From Selaginella tamariscina (taxonomy: Eukaryota; Streptophyta; Lycopodiopsida; Selaginellales; Selaginellaceae): a DNA stretch of 64,000 nt. The translations under genes were made by a program, and so were the position numbers. Positions 4,444-34,107 of this stretch are shown here, one piece after another (the stretch's first letter is position 1; each line of letters begins with the position of its first letter). The stretch lies in assembly GCA_003024785.1 (NCBI GenBank), contig PUQB01000191.1:1-64000 (forward strand). Direction: 5' to 3'. The notes beneath the pieces are model-generated. The model saw only the letters and a list, made by a program, of their open reading frames with translations, was not told where the DNA came from and searched no databases.

Positions 4444-5137
4444 GTTGACGGTGATTTGACCACTATCAAATTGCTAACTGGTGCAAATGAGTGACGGGGC
4501 CGAGTGGCCAAGCGGGAAAGGTATAATAGGTACTTACTGACAATGACAGTTGTCAAGCGGCTCTTAACAAGGGCCTAGATCCGATCATCTGGATCAGCTA
4601 CCAAGATACTCGGGACAGCACACATGAAGGAGGCGCATAAATACTACAGGCAAGACTCCGTCATAGGGCGGTAGACCAATAGGGGAGTGCCACATGGACC
4701 TAGGGTCTAGCACTGGCCAACCCACTATATAAGCAGGAAGGTTAGTAGTGGGCCAGGGTCCTTCTAGTCTGTCTTCTTCTTTGTATCTTGCTCCACCTTC
4801 TCTAGGGCCACATTGTATCCAAACATGCAATATATATATATATAGAGAGAGAGAGATTCTTTTTGTCCACCACATCTTTCGATTACTCTCCTCTTGCCCC
4901 GCTTCTGGTCCAACAGTATACCGCCAAGGAGGCAATAGCACTTTGCATAGGGGAACTCCTACTCACTTATACATGGGCCCTTGCGGTGTTCAAGTAGAGG
5001 CCATCATAGCACCTTCCAGTGCTCTCGAGGTAAGGGCCGACTCACCAGTGCAGACCCCCAAGACTGGGCATTGGCAACAACGTTCTAGCGACCAATAAGG
5101 TTTTATAAGTCACCCCACATCTAGCATGCGGAGTCCA
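4444..5137 (+). repeat. 5' LTR of the outer element
   Basis: This is a direct repeat of 17161-17836. It contains CCCACTATATAAGCAGGAAGG (TATA box near 4722-4730), and homology is lost after GGAGTCC near 5137. Compared with the 3' copy it has many substitutions and a different AT/GA microsatellite near 4832-4858, so the insertion is old. The true 3' end could extend further: the solo LTR and the 3' LTR share a few more bases beyond GTCC. Confidence 0.7.
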
Positions 5138-5299
5138 CGTGGATGGAGTTCATTGTAGCAAGCAGAGTGGCATCCCGAAGGAGAGACCAAAAGAGTCGGG
5201 ATTAACTCATTTGAACAATTGGAGATCAACGAGTATCAGTTGACCAAGAGGATGTGTTGGGCTGGCCAAGAGAGGCAAATGAAGGGCAAAGAGGTGCTT

Positions 5300-5911
5300 T
5301 AGATGCCACAGTCGACTCTTGCCTCGCCTGTCCGAGAGAACGGTGCAAACACTACATGGCCAAACCTCCGAGAAGCAAAGCACCATCAAAGTCAGTCACA
5401 AGCCGCAAACAACAAAGAGAGGTATGAAGAACCCTTAGCATATCCAAATAAAATTTTAGGTGTAGGAGCATGCAGGAATGAGGAACACCTAGACATGCGA
5501 CCTCACCTGGCAATAACCTATGATGCAAAGTGAGATGGATGGTAGGACGATGGAAGCCCTCCACCCCCTCTTGACGTAGGTGAAAGTGATGGCTACAACG
5601 AGCCCCACACTGGAGAGCCAAAGCTATGTTTGACGAATACCCCAAGGGAGAAGGCCCACATAGAAGAACCCCACGAGAGGGAAGGCCTACTTTGCAAGCA
5701 GGAACCCCGAGGAGATGACATCAGCATGGGTAGCGATAAGGGACAAGAGCCGGAGGTCCTGCTTGGCCAACACTACAAGGAACACAAGGTAGAAAACCAA
5801 GGGCCGCCATCACCCACCAAGATAAGCCGGGTGGACTGTGGATGCCGAAAAGAGGGGAGGAAGAGCCTCATTCAGAAGGCCCCTATAGAGAGGGGCACCG
5901 ACCACCCATAA
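5300..5911 (+). pseudogene. Outer element, N-terminal hydrophilic (gag-side) relic
   Basis: Two overlapping open stretches (about 5303-5533 and 5630-5911) encode very hydrophilic, Glu/Lys/Pro-rich sequence without a recognisable domain. Their position right after the 5' LTR and before the gag core suggests the N-terminal part of the element polyprotein. Stops separate the pieces. No function can be assigned from motifs. Confidence 0.35.
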
Positions 5912-6649
5912 AGCAACCTCTGCACCAGGATTTCAGCAGATTGAACAATGCAGCAGGCCGGGTGAGTACTAGGGTGAGGGCTCGAGAAGGTCAGGCTACA
6001 CATAGGACGACCACCCACGTGAAGGTGACTAAACATCAACGAGTTGATAGATTGAGAAGAGGTACTAGTAAGGGGGCCACATAGTTGTCACTCTAGGCAA
6101 GGGAAATTCCATCCTAGGGCGAGGAAAATTCACACGAGCGAGTGAGACCGTATCGACCACACGAGGGGATTGCACAAGGGTGCATGGCAGAGCTACAACC
6201 ATCACGATACAAGGAGATACTGTCTCAAGGCAAGGAGAATCTGCCTCGACAACCATGACCGTTTGACACTGCGAGGGGATTTTGTAGAGTCGCACATCTT
6301 GTTGAGCCACCCGTTGGACAAGGGATACCGTCTAGCCGAGGTATGCCACGCCACCAACCATCAGGTTTGTCCCACAAAGTGGGCCCCCAAGGGATAGCCG
6401 AAAGAAGCTTGTCCTTGTCACCAACCCTCAATCGGAGGGTGGGGGTGCGAGGGAGGTAAAACGTACCTACATGATACCGAGACGTGGACTACAGCGCGTC
6501 TGAAGTGGAGGGCCCAGATTAGAGCACCTCTCAAGCTCAATGTGATGAAATGGGAGCCAATCCAGCAACCTCACTAGCCCGCGCACTCAATTGGATGCAA
6601 GAGAGCACAATGATAGTACCCTTACCTGCATTTTGAGGAATGATGGGTG

Positions 6650-7560
6650 ATGATGCCAACCAACATATACACAAGTTTGAGCATGTGTGCAAGTTAAAAA
6701 GCGTAAACGAGAACCACAAGAAGCTGAGTGCATTTGCATGCACTTTGGACAAAAAGGCACATGTTTGGTGGGTGCAATTTCACGAGGCAAACAAGAGAGC
6801 TTGCTGGTAAACCACACGAAGGGCATTTATGGATACTTTTCATGAGGAAAAGAGTGAGGAAGAGGTAATCCATAAGCTAACTAGCTTAAAACATAAAGTG
6901 GGAGAGTCGGTCGATGAATACATAAGTCACATGCTGGGGTACATTGCTCGGCTAAAGGATGTCCTAGTCGACCTGACCAAGAAAATGTGATACCAAAAGG
7001 GATTGTGGCCAGAGATTCACAAGTGGATTGGGCTAGACGATGATCAAATGTTCGACAAGTAACTCCGGTATGCCAAGAAGGCGGAGAAGTGGGAAGCCGA
7101 GAAAAGAAGACGCAAGACAAATCAGATGCCAAAGAGGCGAATGACACCACCACAGACAAGGAGAACCTCTCAGACGTCCCAAAGCTTGCCAAAAAGGAGA
7201 GACAATCGGGAGCCAAAGAGCACATACATCCATAGTGAGGGGAAACCCATAGAGCGGCAACAAAAGGAAGACGGGTCCCACAACATGGACAGTTGCTATC
7301 GACTGCCAAGTAGCTGCATTAGCGATGGAATGAAAGGCAGAGGGAGACGTAGAGAGACGGAGGATCTATGGGCATAGATCAAAAGGGAACAACTAGCCTC
7401 GCAAGAGGTCATGGTCAAGAGATCGCAATCGTAGGTCCCGTTCCTAGGAGCGGCAACCCTACCGATCAAGGTACGATGACAGGGATAGGCGGCCAAAACA
7501 TTGAGAGATGACTTGTGTGCTATGCGATGGCCAGCACCTGCTCTACCGATGCTCTTGGGT
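6650..7560 (+). pseudogene. Outer element gag (Retrotrans_gag-like) with zinc knuckle, decayed
   Basis: The reading shows the Retrotrans_gag pattern: KKAHVWWVQFHEA, then a helix ending KVGESVDEYISHM and a GLWPEIHKWIGLD block, followed by a basic region and a CCHC-type knuckle CVLCDGQHLLYRC (about 7511-7550; spacing C-x2-C-x3-H-x4-C, one residue short of the usual x4). In-frame stops interrupt it, for example TGA after LTKKM and TAG after MFDK. Gag would form the virus-like particle and bind the element RNA. The nested element begins about 290 bp downstream, between this gag and the protease. Confidence 0.65.
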
Positions 7561-7850
7561 ATCATTGATCAAACCCATGCTAGAAGCACAAGCACCTGAC
7601 ACCACGAGGGTGGCAAATGGATAGACCCCCGCTAGCCCGACACCAATCCTCACACCGCAGGCCAACTAGGTAATGGTGGTACTACCATGATGGGATGGCG
7701 AGACGAACATGACATCGCAGGCTCCACTAACAGAAGAAACAAGGCGACCACATGCGCATAGAATCAGGGGCCAACCGCTCCAGGACCGGCAGAGCCCAAC
7801 CAAAGCCAAGGATCAAGGGGAACCACGAGGAGGCAGGAACACCCCGTCAT

Positions 7851-8411
7851 TGTCACAACCCGATACAGGATACATGATTCCGGATATAGGATACAGGATG
7901 CAGCATTTCGAATACAGGATATAAGATATGCATGCAGGATATTCCTACAGGATATACCTATAGGATATTCCTATAGGATATGCCATATAGGATATGCTAC
8001 AGGATATGCCTAGAGGATAAGGGACACTATTCTTAGCTCATGACTAGATTAGCTCATGACTAGATTAGACTCATGACCAGATTAGCTTGGAGTTGTGAGC
8101 ATAAAAGCTCCGACCTAATTGTTGTACAATCAGTTACTATCAACACCAGTCTTACTACGATCAATTCTTGTCTTGTCTTGTCTTGTCTTGTTTCCTGTCC
8201 TGCCTGTCTGCTCCTGGATCCTGTCCTGCTCCTGTCTTGTTCTGGATCCTGTCCTGTTCTGTTTGCTCCCGGATCCTATCCTGATCCTGTCTTGCTCCTG
8301 GATCCGTCTGTTCCTATTCCTAGTTCCTGTCCTGTCTCGGTCCTGTTCCTGAGTCAAGCCTTCCTGTTCTTGGAATCCTCTCTTTCCTGGTTCCTGGATC
8401 GTGGCTTGACA
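7851..8411 (+). repeat. 5' LTR of the chromodomain element
   Basis: It begins TGTCACAACCC and ends GGCTTGACA. The first 130 bases are a mosaic of ATACAGGAT and TATAGGATAT units. ATAAAA at 8101-8106 is a likely TATA box. The 3' third is built of CTTGT and TCCTG(T) pyrimidine repeats. The repeat matches 13430-13985 throughout. Confidence 0.9.
8101..8143 (+). promoter_or_regulatory. LTR core promoter and predicted RNA start
   Basis: ATAAAA at 8101-8106 is followed 30 bases later by CAGTTACTATCAA (8131-8143). These 13 bases are perfectly complementary to the primer-binding site just after the LTR. In Tf1-type self-priming the primer is the first bases of the element RNA, so the start of transcription is predicted at or very near 8131. 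The same arrangement is in the 3' LTR (13700-13712). Confidence 0.6.
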
Positions 8412-8413
8412 GT

Positions 8414-8426
8414 TTGATAGTAACTG
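8414..8426 (+). promoter_or_regulatory. Primer-binding site, self-priming type
   Basis: TTGATAGTAACTG lies 2 bases after the 5' LTR. It does not begin with TGG, which a site for a tRNA 3' CCA end would. It is the exact reverse complement of LTR bases 8131-8143. This fits priming by the folded-back 5' end of the element's own RNA, known from Tf1 and related sushi-type elements. Confidence 0.65.
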
Positions 8427-8504
8427 CTTCATAGCTCTCGTTTCCTAGTTACTTTTTTTTTCCTTGTTTTTTCCTTCGTTTTTCTTTTTTTTCTTTCATA
8501 GATC

Positions 8505-9549
8505 ATGGCTGATTTTGAGCACTTTCAACGCGAGCACCAAATGTTGCTTCATGAGCTGGCCACTTTGCGCCAAGTGGTCACGATCTGCAAGGTTCCACCA
8601 TGCGGCACATGCAGCTGATGCATCCTCCAAGGCTGCTGCGCAGGCTCTCTCTCAGGCATCGGTGGTTCCTCTCATCGAACTTTTCTTCGGAGCCGAAGAT
8701 CAGCATGCCAAAAGTTCAGTGGCAATCGCCGATTTCCAAGGTTTCCTGAATCAGATCCGGCTCTTGATCCGCATGCAACCACCGCTACTCGACTGATGCA
8801 CAAAAGGTTGGCCTTTTGGCATCCTTACTAAGTGGATCTCCACGGCTTGGGTTGCCCTTGCTGGAGCGTGACGACCCATTGATGGAAGACTTTGAAGGTT
8901 TCGTGGCTGCCTTTGAAGCCTGCTTTGGAGATCCTGATAAGTACCGTTCTGCATGCACAAAGTTACAAGGCTCACACAAGGATCCAGACCAGCTTCCGTT
9001 TATGCATCCGAATTTCAGCAATTGTGCACGAACATTCCATGGGACGAGACTGCATTGATCGAACACTTCCGTTTTGGGCTGAGGGATGACGTGAAGGACC
9101 TTCTCCTTACGTTACCGGATGCTCAAACGTTAGCGGAGATCATGCAACAGGCCGTTCGCTGCGACAACCGTTTGTTCGAGCGCCGTCAAAAAATCCGTCA
9201 GCAGTTCCTGCCAGCCAATCCTGTAGCCGTAGCACATGTTCCTACGACACCTTCTGGAGCAGTTCCTATGGAGGTTAACAAATCCAAGCGTGGCCCACTT
9301 TCAACTGCTGAGAAGCAACGTCGGGGTGAGAACCTATGCTTGTATTGTGGTGAAGCAGGACACAAGGTGGCGGAATGTCCTAATAAAGCCAGAAGTTCAA
9401 GACGCGTGAAGCCGAAGCTGAAGTTCAGTCGGAAAACTTCAATGTCCACTTCGTCTAGGAGCCGCGAAGTTGGACGTAGGTGCAGGCTCCATTGGTGCTG
9501 CTCATACCATTCCATCACTCAAGTTTCCTGTACACATTCGCCTCAATAA
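8505..9549 (+). pseudogene. Chromodomain element gag with CCHC knuckle
   Basis: Gag begins at ATG 8505 (MADFEHFQREHQ), 94 bases after the LTR. A broken N-terminal part is followed by the gag core: FGLRDDVKDLLLTLPDAQT (about 9073-9130), a basic linker, and a canonical zinc knuckle CLYCGEAGHKVAEC (about 9337-9380; C-x2-C-x4-H-x4-C). It would assemble the particle and package RNA. Frames change at least three times before 8953, then stay open to the TAA at 9547-9549. Confidence 0.75.
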
Positions 9550-9780
9550 TCGAGAGCTCAAGGAGTTTGCCTGTTAGACACTGGTGCAAATGCATGTTTC
9601 ATGGATGACACTTTTGCAGCTCAGCATGGCATTCCGGTGGTGAAGTTGAAGCGTGCAGTTCCTGTAGAGGTGGCCGATGGTCGTTTGATTGCTTCTGGCG
9701 CAGTTACCCACGCTACCACACCTCTCTTTGCAGTCATGGCGCATTCAACTGTTCGATTTCCTTCAACTTGATCAAGACTC
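9550..9780 (+). pseudogene. Chromodomain element aspartic protease
   Basis: The active-site signature LLDTGANACF is at about 9568-9600, followed by QHGIPVVK and VEVADGRLIASGAV, the usual spacing of a retropepsin. The NIIFGMPWF-like end (IIFGMPWFV, about 9790-9815) closes the domain. The part between is frame-shifted. Downstream, 9850-10500 is a Ser/Pro/Val-rich spacer packed with CCTGTA/TACAGG motifs. Confidence 0.7.
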
Positions 9781-10529
9781 GGTCGACTCCCATCATTTTT
9801 GGCATGCCATGGTTCGTTGTTGCAAATCCGCAGATCGACTGGAGGTCTAGGACGCTCACGTTTTCCTCTCCAGCAGCCAGGATCAATCCTGTACCTTCCT
9901 GCGTGCAGGATACATCCTTGGTGTCTGAGGCAGTACAAGCTACAGGATTGACCGTGCCTGTTCCTGTACCAGTGTTGAAGACTCCTCCTCGACAGGATTC
10001 ACCTCATGTCAGTTCCTCAGCACATCCGCAGGCTCTCCACTCCTGTAAGTTTGCGGATTCCTGTACAGGGTTCTTCCAATCCTGTATCAGTGTCGAAGGT
10101 TCCTCCTCAACAGGATCCACCTCCTGTTGGTTCGTCAGCACACTCACAGGCTCCTCACTCCTGTGCAACCACGGACTTCTGTACAGGATTCTTCCAATCC
10201 TGTACACTTGTCAACATCCACATCTGTTTCTCCAATCCTGCCTCTTTTGTTACTCTTTCTGTTCCACCCCCCAAGATCCTTCCTCTTTTTCAGTCACAGC
10301 TCCCTCCTTCTCCTCTCCGAGTTCTTACCACTACCATGCATGAACTTGCCACTGATCCTGCTCCTTTCCACCTTTTTGCCTTTCAAGTAACTCCTACGTC
10401 CTCTTCTACCTTTCCTGTGTCTGACTCTCCTTTTTTCAATCTCCTTCTCCTCTCCTTTCCTTCTCCTCCTTCTTCCCTACCATCCAAGTATCACTCCTTA
10501 AGGACGTTTTTGACAAGCACAAGGCTGCA

Positions 10530-11866
10530 GTTCTTCCTGTTCACAGGTCCTACGACTGTCCTATTGATCTTGCGGAAGGAAAGACTCCACCGTTCGGACC
10601 GATTTATGCATTGTCACCCACAGAGTTGGAGGTTCTTCGTCAGTACATCGAGGACAACTTGGCATCCGGCTTCATTCGTCACTCAAAGTCCCCTGCAGGA
10701 GCGCCTATCTTCTTTGTCAAGAAGAAGGATGGGAGTTTACGTTTGGTTGTGGACTACAGGGGTTTGAATCAAGTCACCATTCGGAATCGGTACCCGTTGC
10801 CATTGATCCCGGAACTTCTCGATCGGCTGCGAGGAGCAAAGGTGTTCACGAAGATCGACTTACGAGGGGCCTACAACCTTGTACGGATTCGTCCGGCGAT
10901 GAGTGGAAGACTGCCTTTCGTACAAGGTATGGACACTTCGAGTACACGGTGATGCCTTTCGGCCTTACCAATGCCCCAGCCGTGTTCCAACACATGGTGA
11001 ACGACATCTTTCGTGACTTCTTGGACCAGTTTGTGGTGATCTACCTCGACGACATTTTGATTTTCTCCAAGGACCAGGCGGCACATGACAAGCATGTACG
11101 ATTGGTTCTACAGCGGCTTCGCGAGCATGGCCTGTATGCGAAGTTGGAGAAGTGTTTTTTCGATAGGGATTCTGTGGAGTTCTTGGGCTACATCGTCTCT
11201 CCTGCTGGCGTTTCCATGGACATGCACAAGGTGAAGACCATCGTGGAGTGGGAGAGGCCCAAGTCTGTACGAGATGTACAATGTTTCCTTGGCTTTGCAA
11301 ACTTCTACAGGCGGTTCATACAGGACTTCTCCAAGCGTGTACTTCCACTCACGGAACTCACCAAGCGCACAGAGGTTTTCTCTTGGTCCGACAAGGCGGA
11401 ACATGCATTCACAACACTCAAGGACACCTTCACGACAGCTCCGATTTTAGCACATCCTGATCCTTCTCGTCCTTTCTTCGTTGAAGCAGATGCCTCGGAT
11501 TTTGCAGTAGGATCCGTCCTATCAAGTTGGAGAAGACAAGTTGCTTCATCCTGTAGCTTTTCACTCTCGTAAGTTCCTTCGGCGGAGATCAATTACGAGA
11601 TTCATGACAAGGAACTCAAGGCCATTGTGGATTCGAGGAGTGGCGGCATTTCCTGGAAGGTGCTGCACATCCTGTACAAGTTCTTACGGATCACAAGAAC
11701 CTGGAGTATTTTCAAACGGCTCGAGTTCTCAGTCGACAGGCTAGGTGGGCGGAGTTCCTATCACGTTTTGATTTCGTCATCGTCTACAGGCCCGGTTTTC
11801 GGAATGGCAAGGCGGACGCATTGTCTAGGCGCTCTTACCTTGCACCACCCGGGCGATCCTGCATGA
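10530..11866 (+). pseudogene. Chromodomain element reverse transcriptase and RNase H
   Basis: RT motifs appear in order: [19 protein letters not shown] (about 10712-10770), [12 protein letters not shown] (about 10842-10875), MPFGLTNAPAVFQ (about 10950-10990), the catalytic IYLDDILIF (about 11040-11066) and GFANFYRRFI (about 11290-11325). RNase H follows, with VEADASDFAVG (about 11480-11512), [12 protein letters not shown] and the closing [16 protein letters not shown] (about 11790-11835). One-base frame changes occur near 10945, 11520 and 11640-11690. Confidence 0.88.
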
Positions 11867-12149
11867 CTGTCAAAGCAAGTGTTGTTGGGTCCTGATCGAT
11901 TCCGGCTTGCGGCACTACAGGTTCATCAGGCTCCAGCAAATTCAACACTCCTACAGGACATCCGTTCGCAGTTGGCTACAGACGACTTGGCAAGAATGTG
12001 TTCTCACACATTCATCCTGACATTGCAAGTTCCTCTTCCTCCAGTTCCCGTTCAGACTACAACTGTTCACCATACAGGATGGACTCCTGTACCGGGAAGG
12101 TCTCCTGTACGTTCCTGTTGGTGTTTGCAGGACTCGTGTGGTACAGGAT

Positions 12150-12890
12150 TGTCATGATACCCGGCTACAGGACATTTTGGTGTGGCCAAGACAGTTGAGT
12201 TGGTGACTCGCAACTATTGGTGGCCTGGGTTGCGAGGTTTTGTGGAAAGGTTTGTACGGAGTTGTGACCTGCAACAGGTCGAAGATGCCTCGTCATGCAC
12301 CCTCTGGTCTTCTTCGTCCTCTTCCTGTTCCTTCTGCTCCTTGGAGATCCATTTCTATGGATTTCCTCACAGATCTTCCTCCTTCTCGTGGATTTGATGC
12401 AGTTCTTGTGGTGGTTGACCGTTTCACCAACAGGCTCATTTCCTACCCTGCAACAAGACAGCTACAGGTCAGACAACTGCGAGTTGGTGATCCGAGTGTT
12501 CCGACATCATGGTCTTCCTGAGAGCATTGTTTCGATCGAGGTCCACAATTCATGTCCAAGTTTTGGCGAGAGCTTCTCGGAGTCTACAGGTTAAAGCGGA
12601 TCTTTCTTCAGGATATCACCCGCAAACTGATGGGCAGTCAGAACGCACAATTCAGACCTTGGAGCAATATCTTCGTTGCTTCATCAGTTACCAACAGGAT
12701 AATTGGTTGGACCTTCTTCCTATGGCGGAGTTTGCCTACAACAACTCCATTCACGCATCTACAGGCCAGACACCTTTCTTTGCTCTTACAGGCCACCATC
12801 CACGTTTTGACTTTGCTCTCCTGCTTCTCCTTCTTCCGCTCCTGCAGTACAGGATCGTCTCAGCATCTTCGTCAGGTACAGGATGATCTC
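12150..12890 (+). pseudogene. Chromodomain element integrase core
   Basis: A zinc-finger region (about 12180-12300, CDLCQ-like) is followed by the catalytic core. Landmarks are [24 protein letters not shown] (first Asp, about 12354-12425), a degraded second block with a frameshift, and SGYHPQTDGQSERT with the catalytic Glu (about 12605-12650), then AEFAYNNSIHASTGQTPF (about 12727-12780). It would insert the cDNA. The frame changes several times. Confidence 0.82.
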
Positions 12891-13194
12891 CGGGTTCATC
12901 TTCAGCAGGCACAGGAACGATACAAGCATCATGCTGATGCTCACCGTCACCGGCACCTGCATACAAGATTGGTGATCTCGTGTGGCTTCTTCGTCGACAC
13001 ATTCGCACCAACAGGCCTTCTTCTAAGTTGGATTTTCAACGATTGGGCCCTTACAGGATGTGGCGGAGGTAATCCTGTAGCTTTCCGACTCGAGTTACCA
13101 TCTACGGTGAAACTTCATCCTGTGTTTCACACCTCCTTGTTGGAGCCGTATCATCCTTCTTCTCTTCCTGGTCGTGCTTCTTCTCCTCCCCCTC

Positions 13195-13418
13195 CTGTGG
13201 TCATTGCTGGTGAACCTGAGTACGAAGTTGCAGCCATCCTTGATTCTCGTCTTCATCATCGCCAACTTCAATACTTGGTGGATTGGAAAGGTTATTTGCC
13301 TACCGATCGCACTTGGGAACCTGCATCCAACTTACTCCATGCTTCTTCCAAAGTTGCTGCCTTCCATCGGCATTATCCTGCTAAACCAGGTCCTAAGACT
13401 CGTGGAACTCGTCCTTAG
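13195..13418 (+). pseudogene. Integrase C-terminal chromodomain
   Basis: The polyprotein ends in a chromodomain: YEVAAILDSRLHHRQLQYLV followed by DWKGYLPTDRTWEPASNL (about 13222-13335), terminating at TAG 13416-13418. The aromatic cage positions are Y, W and W. In chromoviruses this domain steers insertion to marked chromatin. It is in frame with the preceding GPY/F-like segment (KLHPVFHTSLLEPYHP, about 13108-13155). Confidence 0.9.
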
Positions 13419-13429
13419 GGAGGAGGTGC
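13417..13429 (+). promoter_or_regulatory. Polypurine tract
   Basis: AGGGAGGAGGTGC sits immediately before the 3' LTR (TGTCACAACC from 13430) and overlaps the stop codon of the polyprotein. It is the expected plus-strand primer. Confidence 0.75.
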
Positions 13430-13985
13430 TGTCACAACCCGATACAGGATACAGGATTCCGGATACAGGATACAGGATGCAGATTTCGGATACAGGATAC
13501 GGGTATACAGGATATGCCTGCAGGATATTCCTACAGGATATACCTATAGGATATTCCTATAGGATATGCCTATAGGATATGCTACAGGATATGCCTAGAG
13601 GATAAGGGACACTATTCTTAGCTCATGACTAGATTAGACTCATGACCAGATTAGCTTGGAGTTGTGAGCATAAAAGCTCCGACCTAATTGTTGTACAATC
13701 AGTTACTATCAACACCAGTCTTCTACGATCATCTTGTCTTGTCTTGTCTTGTCTTGTTTCCTGTCCTGCTCCTGCTCACTCTTGGATCCTATCCTGCTCC
13801 TGTCTTGTTCTCCGGATCTTGTCCTGTTTCTGTTTGCTCCCGGATCCTATCCTGATCCTGTTTGCTCCTGGATCCGTCCTGTTCTTGTTCCTAGTTCCTG
13901 TCCTACTCTCGGTCCTGCTCTTGAGTCAAGCCTTCCTGTTCTTGGAATCCTGCTCTTTTCCTGGTGACTGGATTGTGGCTTGACA
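13430..13985 (+). repeat. 3' LTR of the chromodomain element
   Basis: It matches 7851-8411, beginning TGTCACAACCC and ending TTGACA. It keeps ATACAGGAT units more regularly than the 5' copy and lacks the duplicated TAGATTAGCTCATGAC unit. The target-site copy GTCAT follows at 13986-13990. Confidence 0.9.
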
Positions 13986-14199
13986 GTCATTAGCATAGGA
14001 GAGGCCAAGGCATCAATGGGACAAGGGGCACCACTCACTTCGGCTGCGCTATGCAGGGCTCGGCCACATGGATTAGTGAGGCCCCGTCCAAGAGACACTA
14101 CGACTACAATAAACTTCATGAACAACATACCATCCATTCCAGTTTGAATGGCGGCCACACAATCAGCAACGTAATTGTCAATAGTGAACATCATGTTAA

Positions 14200-14420
14200 T
14201 GAAACTCCATCATGAGCTGAGTATGCCAACCCTAGAGCCTACAACCTTCCATGTACGCATGGCAAACAAGGTAACACCCAAGGGTATCTTAAGGGAAATG
14301 GAAGTCGAGATCCAAACTGTCAAATTTTGGATAAATGTCATCATCATCAACATGCACACCAAAGAGGGATTCGACTTACTTCTTGGTCACCCCTGGATTA
14401 GGGGCACAAAGGTATAGCAT
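14200..14420 (+). pseudogene. Outer element aspartic protease relic
   Basis: The frame reads through ...TTFHVRMANK, EMEVEIQTVKFWINVIIIN and GFDLLLGHPWIRGT. The LLLGHPWI block is the C-terminal signature of gypsy-type retropepsins. The DTG active-site segment is expected upstream (before 14200) but is not intact. With the gag relic at 6650-7560, this places the nested insertion between gag and protease of the outer element. Confidence 0.55.
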
Positions 14421-15479
14421 GACTGGGAGCATTAACAAATAAGATTGCATACCAAGAGGGGACTGATATCCATATTAGCAAAGTAAGTTCAAGCACCCCC
14501 GTAGAGGTTCTGAGCACTAGAACTACGGGCTAGGCAGGCACTTAGGATTGGACAACGACAAAGCGGCGGCCTTCTACGCCCACCCGCAAGGCTCGCCCCG
14601 TGTAAGGCAGGAGGGCCCCCACCAGAGCAAGCACTACACGGCCAGACTGAGGGTCACATGGGAACGCTTGAAGCCTAAAGCAAGCTTAGGGACCGGATCA
14701 CCAACCACCTTTGCAATTCTAGAGGAGCCACCCAAATGCACCACAGCTAGACAGCAGCACCACCTAAACAGGTCCAATCCAATCCCGGTAATGGACTTAA
14801 CCAATAGCCCCATACCAGCCCCGATCTCAACAAAGAATACCCACAACCCTAGCTAATCGAAAATCATCTATGACAGCCGGGGAGGGAAGGCCTCTGGCAG
14901 GGGCATCTCCTGCTAGAAGTAGTCATGAAGTTCCAGGTGTGGGACACACAGGACTAGTGGCAGAAGGCCTCGGAGGGGAGGGAATAGTTGGAAGGCCCTA
15001 CATATAGGACTAGGGCAGGCTCTACCAAACATCATTAGGGTGGCAAGGAGCAGCAATGGCGAACAAGCATAGCGACATATAGCTGACAATGACTGTGTTG
15101 AGCCGAACATCCACTTAGACAAAGCCCTAACCGAGGCACCTTGAGGCAAAGCAACCACTACAATAGGGAACCCCCAAGGAAGCACAACAAGAAGGGCAGT
15201 GTAGCTGAGAGAAAGACCTCCAAACACACGTGTGGCTAGCTCACATGATACATGGTCCACGAGGGTGGACCGCACGCATGAGGCACGTACTACAAAGGTA
15301 ATGATGGTCGAGCAGTGCTATCATTGCAAATCAAGGGGCAAGGATAATCACGCCAGTCACCTTAGAGGACATCATGAGGACCACCACGTCGGCTATGCCC
15401 TAAGAAGGAGATGTATAGTGTAACGCCTCAACCACTGTAACGACGGAATGGACGGCGCAAACAGGCCAATGGTCATCCA

Positions 15480-17105
15480 AGAATAGCAGAACTCATAGGA
15501 CCCAGATATTCCAGGTTCAAGAAATTGATCGACCGACCCAACATTAAGCAGGTCAAGAGACAAATGCGTCTAGTTGAGTTTTTCAACCTTTCGTGGGGAG
15601 AAGTGGAGAATTCAAGATTCATCAAGAGAGCCGGGTAATTCATCCAGTCTGCACAGCTGGTAGCCAACCAGACCGAACAAACAAGGATTCAAGTTTGCTT
15701 AGGAGGTAGCACATCCTTCTACATAATGTTCGACCAGCTGGCAACAATATTCTGACTACCATAGGACAACCTCATGGTAGAGGAATTATCAGAGACTAAA
15801 CCACAAAGGTCCACCACTAGAGGGAACAAGGTGTTAAGGGAAGGGAGAGTTTATAGCAGTAGTGGCCTTCATGTTCACTGGAAGAACGGAGAGATAAATC
15901 ACCAGATGGTTGGCGGATAGCCTTTGTAGGGCTTGGGAAGGAGTCACAATGAACTGGGCAAACTGCCTTAGGCAGTACCTGGTTCTGCCACTAACTCGTA
16001 GGATCTACGAAGTTTAGACCGAAACCAAACAGAGACTTTCCACGGCCAGCCATATCTGTATCATGACCACCGATTTGATGGGCTCAACTATAGCTTCAAT
16101 ACCAGCACAGCTCTGGGCAGGAACAACATGGGACACAAGGGCAAGAGACAACCCGTCTCCTAATCATGAACCACCCATGCACCGAATGGCAGAATCCATA
16201 CGAGAGGTCCCCTAGCAATAGGACCTCCGTTACCATGGAACACCCCATCAAGGATGGTTGGATGGTCTATCGGACTAGACCAAGGGAGAACGGGAGGCGA
16301 CTCCAAGGGCCTACCAGCATTTCCATGCCAACGGCCGGTGGGCCTCATCTCAAGCTTGTAGAGGCCTTCAACCAACTAAGGGAAGCAGTGGTGGTGTACA
16401 GTGACCTCGACCTCCCGTCCATGGCTAAGGAACATGACACCATAATAGCTAAGCTTACGAAATGATGGCAGGCCACACGGAAGCATGCCAAGGAATTTAA
16501 GGAACTTCTCTTTTAGGGAGCCCTGTTGCATGAGGTAGAAGAAAGGAGGAGGAAGGATGCAATGGAAATCTAGAGCATGCTAGCAACAAATTTTGCTAGG
16601 TTACAAGGTAGGTATGATACCCTCTAGAGGCTCCTTGACCACCACAGGCACGCTCGTAGCCAAGTCATAGCAAAGAAAGAGCGGTGAACCCATGAACTCA
16701 TGACCAAGATGGAACAAAGGGGAAGGGAGCTCAGAGAACCGCACTTGCAACCAGCCAAGAAGAAACCCCCACTTGGTGGGCAAGAGGCGAGCATTGCATT
16801 GAGTGCGGCTCGCCCAAAAATTAGTAGAACCCACCACGAACCACTATTGCAGAGTTACTAGAGCATACCCAACGACAAACCCAACTACTCACAATGAGGG
16901 AATAGGAGTTACAGCACTTGCACGAGTGAGTTCAGGAGTTGAAGGCCCATTTAGAACAAACTCAGGAGCAGTGGGAGGCAGAGTTTCAAGCGGAACTACG
17001 AAAGGCTACCGAGCTACATGATGTGACGATCGCCTCCCTAAAGCTGAAGTTGGCCGCAGTAGAGAGCAAAGCTACAACCTATCACAGCCACTATGGCATG
17101 GCCTA
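15480..17105 (+). pseudogene. Outer element 3' region: hydrophilic and coiled-coil coding relic
   Basis: A broken reading frame runs up to the 3' LTR. Its first part (about 15480-15760) includes KKLIDRPNIK, QSAQLVANQTEQT and IQVCLGGSTSFYIMFDQLA, a gag-like segment. The later part (about 16345-17105) is heptad-rich coiled coil (for example LEQTQEQWEAEFQAELRKAT and IASLKLKLAAVES). Stops recur, mainly TAG. No RT or integrase motif is seen. The product cannot be named; it resembles the extra ORFs of large non-autonomous plant retroelements. Confidence 0.4.
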
Positions 17106-17160
17106 GGGCAATGTAATACATGGCCCAGGGACGAGCCAACAACTAAGTCTGGGCATTTGG

Positions 17161-17836
17161 TTGACAATGGTTTGACCACCGTTAAACTACCAGCTGATGC
17201 AAATGAGCGATGGGGCTGAGCGGCCAAGCAGGGAAGGTATAGTAGGTATTGATTGACAATAACAATTGTCAAGTGGCTCTTAACAAAAGCCTAGATCCGA
17301 TCATCCGGATCAACTACCAAGGTACTCAGAACAACACACGTGAGGGAGGCACATAAATGCTACATGTAGGACTCCGTTATAGGGCGGCAGACCAGTAGGG
17401 GAGTGCCACCTAGACGTAGGGTCTAGCACTGATTGACCCACTATATAAGCATGAAAGTTAGTAGTGGGTCAAGGTCCTTCTAATATGTCTTCTTCTTTAT
17501 ATCTTGTTACACCTTTTATGGGGCCACATTGTATCCAAACAGACAATATATATATATATTTCTTATGTCCACCACATCTCTCGATTACTCTCCTCTTCCC
17601 TGCTCTTGGTCCAATGGTATACCACCAAGGAGGCAACAACATTGCACATAAGGGAACTCCTACTCACTTGTACACGAGCCCTCAAGGCGTCTAGGTAGAG
17701 GCTATCACAACATCTTCTAGTGCTCCCGAGGTAAAGGCTAGCTCACCAGTGTGGACCCCAGAACTGGATGTTGCAACATCGTCCTAGCAACCACCGAGGC
17801 TTTATAAGTCAGCCCACATTTGGCCTATAAAGTCCT
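17161..17836 (+). repeat. 3' LTR of the outer element
   Basis: This direct repeat of 4444-5137 includes CCCACTATATAAGC and the AATATATATATAT tract at the same relative place. It starts at about TGACAATGG after a weak purine-poor segment. Homology with the 5' LTR ends near 17836, although GTCCTTGACGACTAA beyond it resembles the end of the inverted solo LTR. Confidence 0.7.
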
Positions 17837-20792: not shown

Positions 20793-23700
20793 TGTTCATA
20801 TAGGTTGGAGTTGCTTTCTCTGTATAAGTGCAACCTGACTGGAAAGGTTCCAAAATTTACAAAATTCGCAAATTTACGGTACCTGGACATTGCTTTCAAC
20901 AACATGCTTGATTCTTGGACTTTGCAGGACATGGATATTTGCAGCTTACACCAGCTTCGGTCCTTCTCAGGTGTGTGTGTGTGTGTGTGTGTGTTGTGTG
21001 AGAGAGAGAGAGAGAGAGTGAGTGTGTATTTTGTGTATAGCTGAAAATAATTAAGCTAACTTTAATTTTGACGTTTTGAATATTTGTTCCAGCAACTGGA
21101 GAGGACTCAGAATCAGGAGAGGACTCAGAATCTTATCTAAAAGGACAAATTCCAGCGTGTATGGAACAGCTTCGCAATTTGACACATCTCGACCTTGCCA
21201 ATAACCAGGTCTCGGGTTCCATTCCATCCGAGTTCAGTTTACTCCGCAACCTAACTCATCTCGATCTTGGTCGTAATATGCTTACTGGTCCCATTTCTCC
21301 ATTATGCCACCTTCCTTATCTCAGGTATTCATATATTAATAATTTAAACCATATTGTTAATTATATCTTAATACATTACGTTCATAAAATATTTATATTG
21401 AGCTAATTGAACTCGTAACCTTCGCATATTCGAATGTATATCATGTTGTTCATAAATATATTTGTATTAAGCTTCCAACGAGGTTTGAACTCGTGACCTT
21501 TCGCTTATGAGACGAGCGCACTACCGACTGTGCTATGGAAGCCGCCATGTCAAACCCTAGCATGCACTTTAGCAACTTTTGTTCAAGTCTTTCCTTCGTT
21601 ATTACACATGTATTAATAATGTTTATGTTGTTCTTGTATTATTGATGATTTGATTTGTTGTTTTAAGGTATCTTGACTTGATGTTTTGGAACCAGCTTAA
21701 CGAAAACTGGTATATTCAAGGAATCCCAGACTGTATAGGGAACCTCACTAACCTTGTTTACTTAGAGATAGGGGAAAGTGGTTTCGTCGGTCAAATACCG
21801 TCATCCATCGGTCAACTATCGAAACTAGAGCATATTTCCTTGATGGAAATCTGTTTAGTGGTGCATTCCCTGATTCTTTTGGTAATCTTACCTCTCTTAA
21901 GACACTAAGCTTCGACAACTCCGGGTTTATCACCAGTTACCCAAATGCTGCACTTAATGGATCGATTCCGACACACTATCACGTCTCAAGGTAGTGTATG
22001 CAAACGCACACATATACGTGTGTATGCTGTGTGTGTTATATATATATGTCTTTTGTGTTCTTTTGTAAGGAATTGACAATGCTCCTGTTCAACAATCTGG
22101 GACTGTCGGGTCCAATCCCGGCATCTCTGGGCAAATTAAGAAGACTCCAGTCCTAGCGATTTCCAACATGCCTGGGATTAATGGATTTCCCGCAAGTATG
22201 GGAATGCTTTCAACCTACATACCTTGGAATATACTCCACGAATATCTCGGCAAGTATATCTCCCGAGCTTGGGAACCTTTCCTCTTTGCAGACACTGGAA
22301 TTGACGAATAACTCCCTTTCAGGTATATCGGTACACATGTGCATACACACTCATATGTATGTATGTATACACATTTAAATGCAGATGTAATTTACTCGTA
22401 CGTGTACAATGTATATCAGGTAGTATACCGGCAAGTTTCTCCAATCTCCGGAATATTGTTGGGATACTCCTGGGCAGTAATAGACTCTCTGGTAACTTAG
22501 AGATCAATTTTGATGATTTAAACAAGCTGGCTACACTCGATCTTTCAGCAAATTTTCTTAGCGGGAGTCTACCGGAAAATATCGGAAATACACCGTTAAC
22601 GAGCTGGACATATTCGGTAATAAGTTCACCGGAAGATTCCCGGTTTCACTGTACGGAGTGAATTTCATAGCTGCATCGCACAACTTGTTTAGCGACTTAA
22701 ACTCGGAATATCCACCGAAGTTTACAGATCGACTGACTATTTAGACCTCTCTAACAACAGGATTTCTGGGAGGCATTCCCGACTGGTTCTCACATCTTAG
22801 TAGTATCGGAGTGCTTGATCTTTCCAGCAATCAACTTACTGGTCCCTTGCCTACGTGGCTTCTTTCTGACTCTCCGATCAGCAGATCTCTGAGCCTTCTC
22901 TTCCCTCTCGGACAATCAATTTGTCATCCAGGTTGGTTCGTATACACATTTATTACCATATACGTGAGTGTGTGTAAATGTACTTTAAGAATGTAGATAA
23001 AAATACATATACATATCGAATGTATATTCGATATGTATGTCCTACTAGTCTTTACTTTTGTTCTCTATTAAGAAAACAAGCACTTAATAGGTTGGAGAGT
23101 TGCCACCAGTAGCCAGCCTTGACCTCTCCGCACAAACTTAACGGGGACAGTCCGTTTAAGCAGTGTGCACCAGACCGTGGACCTGACTCAGAACGGCTTC
23201 TCAAACATAACGTTGGACTCCATCTCGGATGCCCTCTCATTCTTGTCCCTCTCAACAAATGACTTCACTGGCCCTATACCGCCTGTATTCTTCGAAGGAA
23301 GGTTGTGCGTGCGTGTGCGTGTGCGTGTGCGTGTGCGTGTGATAAGCATATAACTAATTCTTGTACATGAACAGGAATTCAATGATCTCACTACTTGATT
23401 TCTCAAACAATCGCTTTTCCGGACACCTTCCCCGTGCACTACAGTCGGCATTTAGTTACTACTTTTCAAATAATAAGCTCAGTGGACGACTGCCTTCAGA
23501 GTATAACCTGGAAATCACCAGCCTAGATTTCAGCCATAATCGTTTTACTGGTTAAGTATACACTCACACACACACACACACACGCACACGCACACGCACA
23601 CACACACACACACACAACTCATGCGGTGTACTCTGTGTTGCGTAGGTCGTATACCAGCTTCAATTGGAGTATAGAGTATTTAGAAGTCTTGGATCTGTCA

Positions 23701-30269: not shown

Positions 30270-31516
30270 ATGGGCCAAGCTGTTCCTCAAGTAGTAGCAG
30301 TTCAAGACTTTTTGAGTCGGGTGAGAAGCTCTCGCAGGTACCGAAGAACTACGTGGCGCCGGTGGACGACACGCCAGTGGTACCGCTCGAGCCCGGTAAG
30401 TCAATTCCCGTAGTGGATCTCAAGAATTTCAACCTCAGCAAGGAGGAGCGCGACAATGTCATCCATGAGATTGCGAATGCAAAGCAGTGAGTGGGGTTTC
30501 CAGGTCATCAACCACGGAATCAACGTGGAATTACTGGCCCTGGCACAGGATGTCTCCCGAACCTTCTTCAACCTCCCCAAGGAAGAGAAGATGAAGTACG
30601 TCGCAAGAAGTACGGATTTCAGGAGGACGGGTACGGTAGCAGGATCTTCACCTCTGAAGATGCGGTTCAGCTGTGGAGGGATTTCATTCTCCTGTGCATG
30701 CACCCGACAAAGAACCCCCAAACTGGCCTGCTCAAACCACAATACAGGTATATGCGTGTGCGTGTGTGTGTGAGAGAGAGAACACATGATCTCACACACA
30801 CACACATACACATACCAATGCTTGCGTGTGTTCCAGAGAGACGATGGCAAAGCAGTGACGAGTTCCTGGTACTGGCAAAGAGACTGCTGGGTTATCTCTC
30901 AGAAGGCGTGGGGCTACCGAGTACATACTTCGAGGAGAAGTTCGGGCAGCCGACACAGTCTATACTCACCAACTACTATCCGGCTTGCCCAGAGCCGGAC
31001 AAAGTCCTCGGCTTCATGCCGCACTCGGATTTCGGTGGTCTCACTCTGTTACTGCAGACTCCACACCGGGACTTCAGGTTCTCAAGGACAATGCGTGGGT
31101 CACCGTTGAGCCCATCCGGGGGCCATTACTATCAACATCAGTGACTTTCTCGAGGTATGCACACATTCACGCACGCACGCACATGCACACAACTGTGAAT
31201 CAGCAACTGAATGAGCAATGGAAGGTACAAGAGTGTGATACACAGGGTGAGAGTGAGCGAGAAGAGCCCACGCATGTCAATTGCAAGCAACTACAGTTGC
31301 CTCTTCGACGCAAGTGCTGCACCGGCCCCAGAACTGATGATGAAGAGCACCCACAGTTGTACAAGGCCTGTTGTGTTTGGGGACTATGTGAATGTTGTTA
31401 AGGAGAGAGGACCGATTGGAAAGGCGTACATGATGGTTCAGCATGGAGACAAACTGAGTATATGCTCCTTCAGCACAAGGATTCGTAAGTATCGTGATGT
31501 ACTATATTCTTGCTAA
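30270..31516 (+). CDS. 2-oxoglutarate/Fe(II)-dependent dioxygenase
   Basis: This soluble enzyme belongs to the plant 2OGD superfamily (DIOX_N plus 2OG-FeII_Oxy); the substrate is unknown. From ATG 30270 (MGQAVPQVVAVQDF) the N-terminal domain includes SIPVVDLKNF and WGFQVINHGI; FTSEDAVQLWRD follows. After an intron (about 30750-30836) the core has PACPEPDKVLGFMPHSDFGG, containing the Fe ligands H and D of HxD. Next come LQVLKDNAWVTVEPI, then TINISDFLE before a second intron, and SNGRYKSVIHRV (third ligand H) with RMSIAS (2OG-binding RxS). All catalytic residues are present. The frame breaks about six times. The first break is repaired by one T in a T5 run at 30309-30313, so errors are likelier than decay. 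The C-terminal end is uncertain. Confidence 0.8.
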
Positions 31517-31805: not shown

Positions 31806-34107
31806 CTACTCTGCATCATGATTGGACTTTGCAGCCTTCTCAGCTTCTACAACACGATGCGTCATCTCCTCCGTCAATTGCTGCTTCTTATCCACAACCC
31901 AATCTGTGACTGCTTGAAGAACCCCTTTGTGTTCATCGGTACTATTGATACCTTCACTAGTCTGCATATACACATAAATGTTCGTGGGCATGTGTATACA
32001 CGCACACACACACTTACATGTGGCTTAGTAGACTCAGCAGCAGCCCGGGCCTCTAGCAGCGGCTTCTTCGGCAGCCTCTAGCTCCCTTTGTTGCTTGATG
32101 ATCCGCTCAGTCTCCTCTCTGGCTGCATCATTTGTCTTAATAATGTTGGCTTCTCTGAAACTCTGGACATGGAAGCTGCCAGTGCCCTCTGTGCATCCAC
32201 ATCCTTTCTTGAGATAGACTGAATATGTCCTGTTTGCAATAGCATTACATCCTTCAGCTCAGAGGCAACCTCCCCTATTGTATCCATCAACCCTGTAAAG
32301 AAAAGTCATACATATATACATATACAAGAGTATACACACATACATACCTTTCCCGCGTTCTGTTGCATCCTCAATCCTTTCCCTTGCTTTCTGCTTTGCC
32401 TTGTCTGCATTAACTCTGGCTCTGTTCTTTGCTTCTTCATAGTTAAACCGTGGTCACGTTCAATCTGCTCAGATCCATGTTCACGTGTCTCGTCTGGGGT
32501 GATACCACATTCTTTAGGTGATCCATAAGGAATGTCCCCTTCTCGGATGCTCTGGGCATGTGACATATTAGTATGTGTGTATACACACAGAGGAATAATG
32601 TATACTTACTTGTCCTCAGCTTTTCTTTTAGTGTCGTCAGCTACCCCAGCAGCTCTACTTGTTGCATCCTTGGCCATGTTCTTCACGTCCTCCCCTTTCT
32701 GCCTCACATTGCCGATTGTGGCCCTTTACCCTTTGGGACACATTATCCAGTGCAGTCTTCCCTCGCTCGGAGGCCTCGTCTTTGGTCTCGTAAGCCTTAT
32801 GCTTTGTCTCATCGTATGTGCTTTTTGCCCTTTCTGAAACCTCCTTGCCCTTATGCGAAGCCTCATCCTTTGTATCTTGAATGGAGCTCTCAACCTTCTG
32901 CCCTTAAGATCATTTGTCTCATCCCTCTAGTCCCGGTCATTGTGTTTCTTAACCATGTCACCCAAAGTTGCAAACAAACCCTTCTCAGAGGTCTCATCTC
33001 TCGTCTCGTAAGCTTCCTCTTAGTCTCGTCAATGGTACCCTTTACCCTTTCCGACGCCTCATCCTTGGTCTCGTAAGCCTTCCTCTTGGTATCATCAAGT
33101 GTGCCCTTCGCCCTTTCAGAAACCTCCTTGCCCTTGTTCTTTCTCATCCACTGTGCTTCTCGCCTTGTCAGAGGCCTCGTGTGTTCTTCTCCCTGACTGT
33201 ACCCTTGAGTCGTCAATGTCTCTGGTCTTCAACGTGCTCATGGCCCTGTTGACATCCGTTTCTGACCCTCAGTTTCCTCTGTAGTCCCGGCAACTGCATT
33301 TCTCACCATTTCACCTAAAGCTCCCAACAAGCCCTTTCCATGGTCTGAAGCCTCCTCTGCCCTTCTCTTTGTGTCATCAATATTGGTCCTTACCCTTTCC
33401 GAGCCTCGTCTTTAGTCTCGTAAGCTTCCTCTTGGATCATCTGCTGCACCCTGCCCCTTTCCGAGGCCTCGTCTTTAGTCTCGTAAGCCTTCCTCTTGGT
33501 GTCATCTGCTGCACCCTTTGCCCTTTCAGAGGCTTCGTTCCCTCTTCTTTTCGTTTCATCCACCCATTCTGAAGCCTGCTCTTTTGTTTCATAAGCCTTC
33601 TGCTTGGTCGCATTCCAAGTGCTCTTTGCTCTGTCTGAAGCCTCATCCACAGTGCCCTTCACCCTTTCGGAAGCCTGGTCTCTTGTTTCGTACGCCTTAT
33701 GCTTGACATCATCCCAAGTGCCCTTCGCCCTTTCTGAAGCCTGGTGGCCTTATGCTTGGTCTCGTCCCATGTGCCCTTGGCTCTGTCTGTAACTTCATCT
33801 GTTGTTTGGTATGCATTCTCCTTAGTCTGGTTAAGCGTGCCCTTTGCCCTATCTGAAACCTCTTGTTCCTTGTCCTTTATATGATCAGAGGTGCTCTCAG
33901 GAATGCGTCTGCCCTGAAGACCTTTTGTGGCTTCGACATGGTCACGAGCCCCGCTGGACATCTCCTCCTCCTGTATGAACATACTACAATTACAGACGTG
34001 TGTGTGCGTGCGTGTATATAGCGTGCGGACTTGAGACAAATACACAAAATATACTGAAATACGTATTACATAAGTACTGTGGTCGATTATCTATATATAC
34101 ATGTATA

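Follow-up and report, generated by a model that had tools for sequence, protein, structure and literature searches.

A chromodomain Ty3/gypsy retroelement family of Selaginella tamariscina very probably uses its own RNA as the primer of minus-strand DNA synthesis, as judged from sequence. The copy described here, itself broken, lies in the window, i.e., the analyzed stretch of 64,000 nt (contig PUQB01000191.1, positions 1 to 64,000). Five kinds of sequence-derived evidence were used: complementarity between the long terminal repeat (LTR) and the primer binding site (PBS), the position of this complementarity, its co-variation between families, a predicted RNA fold, and variability at the edge of the PBS.

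The order of parts between the LTRs of the window element was that of a Ty3/gypsy chromovirus: gag, protease, reverse transcriptase (RT), RNase H, integrase, and chromodomain (Table 1). RT, RNase H, and chromodomain scored over the Pfam cut-off, gag scored just under it, and protease and integrase were placed by tblastn only. An SH3_Tf2-1 Pfam match near the end of the integrase region was just below the cut-off. The coding frames are broken. Between the two LTRs there are 13 gaps, and 24 of the 539 aligned positions differ (20 by transition); thus the element is not a fresh insertion. It is probably nested in another repeat, as it is flanked by direct repeats with 81% identity (4444–5120 and 17160–17819, spanning 4444–17819) and an RVP_2 protease match lies inside 14175–14414.

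Table 1. Features of the chromodomain retroelement in the window.
Feature	Position	Strand	Remark
Target site duplication GTCAT, left	7846..7850	+	Beside 5' LTR
5' LTR, TG...CA, 561 bases	7851..8411	+	
TATA-like ATAAAA	8101..8106	+	First base 31 bases 5' of A8132
Self-primer AGTTACTATCAA, presumed RNA bases 1–12	8132..8143	+	Complementarity reaches C8131
PBS TTGATAGTAACT	8414..8425	+	2 bases past LTR; variable edge base: G8426
T-rich leader, PBS to gag	8427..8504	+	48 T/78
gag-like region, zinc knuckle, broken frames	8734..9387	+	tblastn with L001 gag; two Pfam matches just under cut-off
Protease-position segment	9574..9878	+	Place in L001 pol frame (tblastn); no Pfam match
Reverse transcriptase RVT_1, two frames, switch near 10.9 kb	10716..11197	+	Pfam over cut-off
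RNase H, RT_RNaseH_2	11384..11536	+	Pfam over cut-off
Integrase region, fragmented	12066..13220	+	Place in L001 pol frame (tblastn); no core Pfam match
Chromodomain, Y/W/Y at presumed cage positions	13221..13373	+	Pfam over cut-off
Polypurine tract AGGGAGGAGG	13417..13426	+	
3' LTR, TG...CA, 556 bases	13430..13985	+	Holds primer sequence at 13700–13712
Target site duplication GTCAT, right	13986..13990	+	Beside 3' LTR

Several other features of the window were recorded. The words TACAGG, ACAGGA, AGGATA, and TCCTGT were strongly over-represented across 7851–13985, the internal region included; AGGAT/ATCCT occurred 74 times in 6134 element bases versus eight times in 4016 flank bases, and TCCTG/CAGGA 107 versus six times in the same bases. 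Six copies of an 88-base unit, 67–82% like the reference copy, occupy 32762–33868 and may, as we guess, belong to a LEA-like repeat gene. Positions 30491–31141 contain part of a 2OG-Fe(II) oxygenase gene.

The initial annotation had proposed self-priming from a 13/13 reverse complement between LTR bases 8131–8143 and TTGATAGTAACTG (8414–8426). This match proved exact, as did the copy of the LTR 13-mer in the 3' LTR, and the ATAAAA reported upstream of the 13-mer was confirmed. The proposed extent of 13 bases held for the complementarity itself and probably not for the primer, which would comprise 12 bases starting at A8132, with the pair 8131/8426 outside it. As the 5' LTR ends at 8411, the PBS starts two bases beyond the LTR; it lacks the TGG start, just as had been claimed, and the first TGG after the LTR end does not come before 8506. 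No TGG-type (tRNA) PBS was detected between the LTR end and 8506 in the window element. With at most one mismatch, the 13-mer occurred at three places in the 64 kb, versus a mean of 0.08 in dinucleotide shuffles. When the site was fixed 0–5 bases past the LTR end, shuffling the 40-base leader 20000 times gave a 13-base match once.

We compared the primer and PBS of the window family with those of three others. One of these, the second family, resides in the same genome and has the primer AGAATCATTCAA and the PBS TTGAATGATTCT. The other two are represented by one contig each, of uncertain origin, obtained by a scan of prokaryote genome contigs in which two of 32 candidate stretches were confirmed: L001 (5265 bases, from a Trichormus bin) and L002 (3847 bases, from a Synechococcales bin). 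Both look like eukaryotic contigs inside cyanobacterial bins. Each is 66% identical to the window element in a 164-residue RT segment, which makes them the nearest relatives found outside the genome, and each contains an LTR end and a leader. L001 is a chromovirus contig (1–5265) with long open frames and overlapping ends. A scan of IMG/VR with the RT and the RT alignment yielded no relatives; a scan of PLSDB yielded three distant RT matches.

The four families have four different primers, each fitting its own PBS over 11–12 bases. The window-family primer AGTTACTATCAA matches its own PBS; in L001 the primer is ACTCTTGATCAA (206–217, pairing with 346–357) and in L002 it is AGTCTCGACAA (128–139, pairing with 282–293). 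When primers and PBSs were crossed among the window family, L001, and L002 (the second family was outside this test), only 4–8 of 13 bases matched. The observed 12 matching bases were reached in one of 20000 leader shuffles for L001 and in none of 20000 for L002. TGACA closes the LTR in each of the four families, two bases come next, and the PBS then opens with TTG; the first primer base is A, 31–33 bases after the first TATA-like base (a spacing counted by eye in L001 and L002). The base before this A is C in the window element, L001, L002, and 13 of 15 second-family occurrences, as well as in 73 of 74 window-family occurrences, with some overlap among the loci counted. In folds predicted for RNA beginning at the start A, the mean pairing probability between primer and PBS was 0.93–0.97 in all four cases. 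Priming with the element's own RNA instead of a tRNA, as the initial annotation had it, is thus supported by co-variation between families together with the lack of a TGG-type site nearby. Within families, the co-variation check gave no clear compensatory change inside the 12 bases and a few uncompensated ones.

The copies behind the within-family comparison came from the window's own assembly (300.7 Mb). Among 150 listed RT loci, 20 were hand-picked for diversity and the region upstream was fetched. A pair of the shared architecture with at most one mismatch in 12 was present at 15 of them (13 of the second family and two of the window family), and a 16th locus, also of the second family, revealed its pair in a longer stretch. 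At the remaining four, stretches of 9.9 kb still revealed no pair of this kind; two of these loci (L091, L094) lacked a long direct repeat, and the other two (L092, L095) contained repeats in overlapping arrays. Stretches set aside for having no pair of the right architecture were L071/L091, L072/L092, L083/L094, L086/L095, and L097. L096 belongs to the window family. Lone pairs with one mismatch also occur elsewhere by chance (L075, L080, L091, L095).

A 105-base LTR query led to 858 candidates, of which 40 were scored, 38 of them outside the window (L003–L040). A PBS-like site followed the LTR in 10 of the 38 (six at 13/13, three at 12/13, and one at 8/13), in three the LTR end could not be recognised, and 25 had no PBS after the LTR; the latter are presumably 3' or solo LTRs, and some of their ends are doubtful. 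With a query that included the PBS (L041–L070), which biases PBS conservation in this set, 27 of 30 junctions were at 13/13, the window's own counted. Of the others, L058 differed by one base from 13/13 pairing, and for L050 and L070 the stretch that was searched yielded no primer. The PBS junction pattern of the window family matched exactly at 799 places in the genome (control: 0).

Uncompensated changes inside the 12 bases took three forms. One PBS base was changed and the primer unchanged in L035 and L087, one primer base was changed and the PBS unchanged in L088, and the same primer base was changed in both L076 and L089, the PBS being unchanged in each. A double matching change in L077 was rejected as compensation: it lies only at position 13, which is variable anyway. 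Decay after insertion can explain the single changes. The change shared by L076 and L089 reflects either two events or inheritance without re-copying and, as the PBS did not follow, counts against strict re-copying.

The variability at position 13 was assessed further in both families of the genome. Among 100 listed of 239 second-family matches, the 1–4 bases between PBS base 12 and TAGTGACAA took 19 forms of four lengths, and base 13 was G in 61, A in 24, C in 11, and T in four. Since the junction pattern used here fixes its own flanks, we checked copies chosen without it, by RT. Base 13 differed from the commonest letter in six of 14 such copies, whereas the 92 neighbouring columns had a mean of 3% differing and never more than three of 14; the excess is significant at about 2e-4 after correction if the copies are independent, which is not assured. 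A further copy with a second-family PBS, met by chance in L063, was left out of the 14 as it was not RT-chosen. A control gap seven bases further on, covered for GGG-junction copies only, was identical in 36 of 38, with one substitution in each of the other two and no change in length. Among 100 listed matches of the window family, shorter forms included, PBS base 12 was followed by G in 72, C in 23, T in three, and A in two. The base that precedes the primer in the LTR hardly varies, so the variation at the edge does not mirror variation in the LTR. In both families, the variable stretch begins directly beyond the pairing partner of the start A. An edge that starts to vary right behind PBS base 12 would be expected of a PBS copied from an RNA with A8132 as its first base. 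It points to transcription starting at this A and, in the simplest reading, suggests a PBS made anew from the RNA primer in every cycle, with imprecise addition at the cap.

How the edge itself arises was weighed between two readings. The edge may be a scar, left when the capped primer is copied to its first base and 0–3 mis-templated or non-templated bases are added opposite or past the cap and then fixed by strand transfer directly behind PBS base 12, a reading that we put forward tentatively and at slightly below an even chance. Reportedly, going by a study title on Tf1, the self primer is not removed there, which would be compatible with a primer that serves as template. Alternatively, the hypervariability may have nothing to do with priming and reflect no more than subfamily structure or ordinary mutation, for which we see a chance that likewise falls a little short of one in two. 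The frequent forms GAGG, GGG, AGG, and GG may be lineages, as may CCTTT in the window family, and the PBSs of L076 and L089 no longer copy their own primers; against this alternative stand the excess of differences at base 13 over every neighbouring column of the RT-chosen copies and the near identity and constant length of the control gap. Subfamily history could be the source of part or all of the edge variation. No obvious description of PBS-edge hypervariability was found among the titles and abstract beginnings listed, a search outside of which most subscription papers lay.

A second alternative is that the pairing is real and selected for another role, such as RNA circularisation, packaging, or translation control, with priming achieved otherwise. 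Pairing by itself is no proof of priming, and the predicted fold is stable; yet in four families the pairing falls at the PBS position with the same two-base spacing, no other TGG-type PBS lies near it in the window element, and the variability clusters at the very edge at which the copy of a primer would stop. We consider this alternative very unlikely.

Possible priming by tRNA was traced in the same genome through CANNTGGTATCAGAGC, which we take to be of tRNA-Met type and which had 314 genome matches as candidate PBS sites (control: 0). Common flanks on both sides were shared by eight of 14 fetched copies. In these eight, one family by eye, the seven bases after TGGTATCAGAGC were invariant and without length change, and substitutions started beyond them; the sixth of the seven would be the last base of an 18-base tRNA PBS, so that this small control reaches just one base beyond its edge. 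The window itself contains a tRNA-Met (CAT) gene (21469–21543, minus strand), and a tRNA was the only Rfam match in the window at gathering scores. Another very unlikely explanation is that a tRNA or half-tRNA primes and the LTR complementarity is coincidence or relic: tRNA-complementary PBSs occur in most plant LTR elements (PMC6317226, in its accessible part) and tRNA-Met-type sites are abundant in this genome, but the PBS lacks TGG, four families have four exact matches to their own LTRs at the same place, and no single tRNA could, we reason, fit four PBS sequences. With abundant tRNA-Met-type sites beside self-primed families, self-priming looks like a property of the family and not of the host.

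In the preferred reading, self-priming, transcription would begin at A8132 and RNA bases 1–12 would fold back onto the PBS at 8414–8425. The RNA would be cut after base 12 (8143), like the RNase H cut in Tf1, and the freed 3' end of the primer would be extended into the LTR. The plus strand would later copy the 12 primer RNA bases, remaking the PBS. Here we infer the RNA start, cleavage, primer use, and re-copying, with the RNA 5' end placed from two things only, TATA spacing and edge variability.

The window element shares features with known self-primed elements. The Y, W, and Y of its chromodomain, which we take to be the aromatic cage positions, align with CDY/CDYL chromodomains in PDB. 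This cage chromodomain and the T-rich leader make it probably an element of the Tcn1 type. The host genome has a CP24/Lhcb6 gene, a mark of land plants. According to the accessible text of Neumann et al. 2019 (PMC6317226), most elements of the plant Tcn1 clade (mosses, club-mosses) are predicted to be self-primed, and 95% of the clade have an aromatic-cage chromodomain; the clade thus resembles the window element in chromodomain, self-primer complementarity, and lack of a tRNA PBS. The same text agrees with the earlier statement that plant gypsy elements are generally tRNA-primed. The suggested uncommon lineage, probably the plant Tcn1 clade, is already described there, and self-priming in plants is not new, having been predicted for that clade.

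SM-Tcn1 of Selaginella, as described in the part of Novikova et al. 2010 available (PMC2864245), has TG..CA LTRs, a 5-bp duplication, and a conserved T-rich stretch between LTR and gag, all of which are matched by the window element. Unlike in the window element, neither kind of priming site was found in SM-Tcn1, as far as that part of the source goes. In the Tf1/sushi group, including Tf1 and Tj1 of fission yeasts, the PBS can pair with the 5' end of the mRNA of the element itself, cleavage and extension have been proposed, and self-priming of Tf1 is described as demonstrated (PMC4600332, accessible part). The window element is alike in that its PBS is complementary to its own presumed RNA start. 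The primer sequences of Tf1 and the window element differ, and self-priming is demonstrated for the former and deduced for the latter. The Tf1 primer has 11 bases, versus a presumed 12 in the window element.

In the cited literature, self-priming of plant chromoviruses has the status of a prediction from sequence. With two multi-copy families in one land-plant genome and two outside relatives, it can now be tested by co-variation between families, a test that the prediction passed. If L001 came from the fern Azolla, which is a guess, such elements would reach ferns. If the scar reading of the PBS edge is true, the primer RNA itself acts as template, each insertion of a self-primed family records the RNA 5' end and the end-addition habit of its RT, and RNA start site and primer use would be readable from DNA alone.
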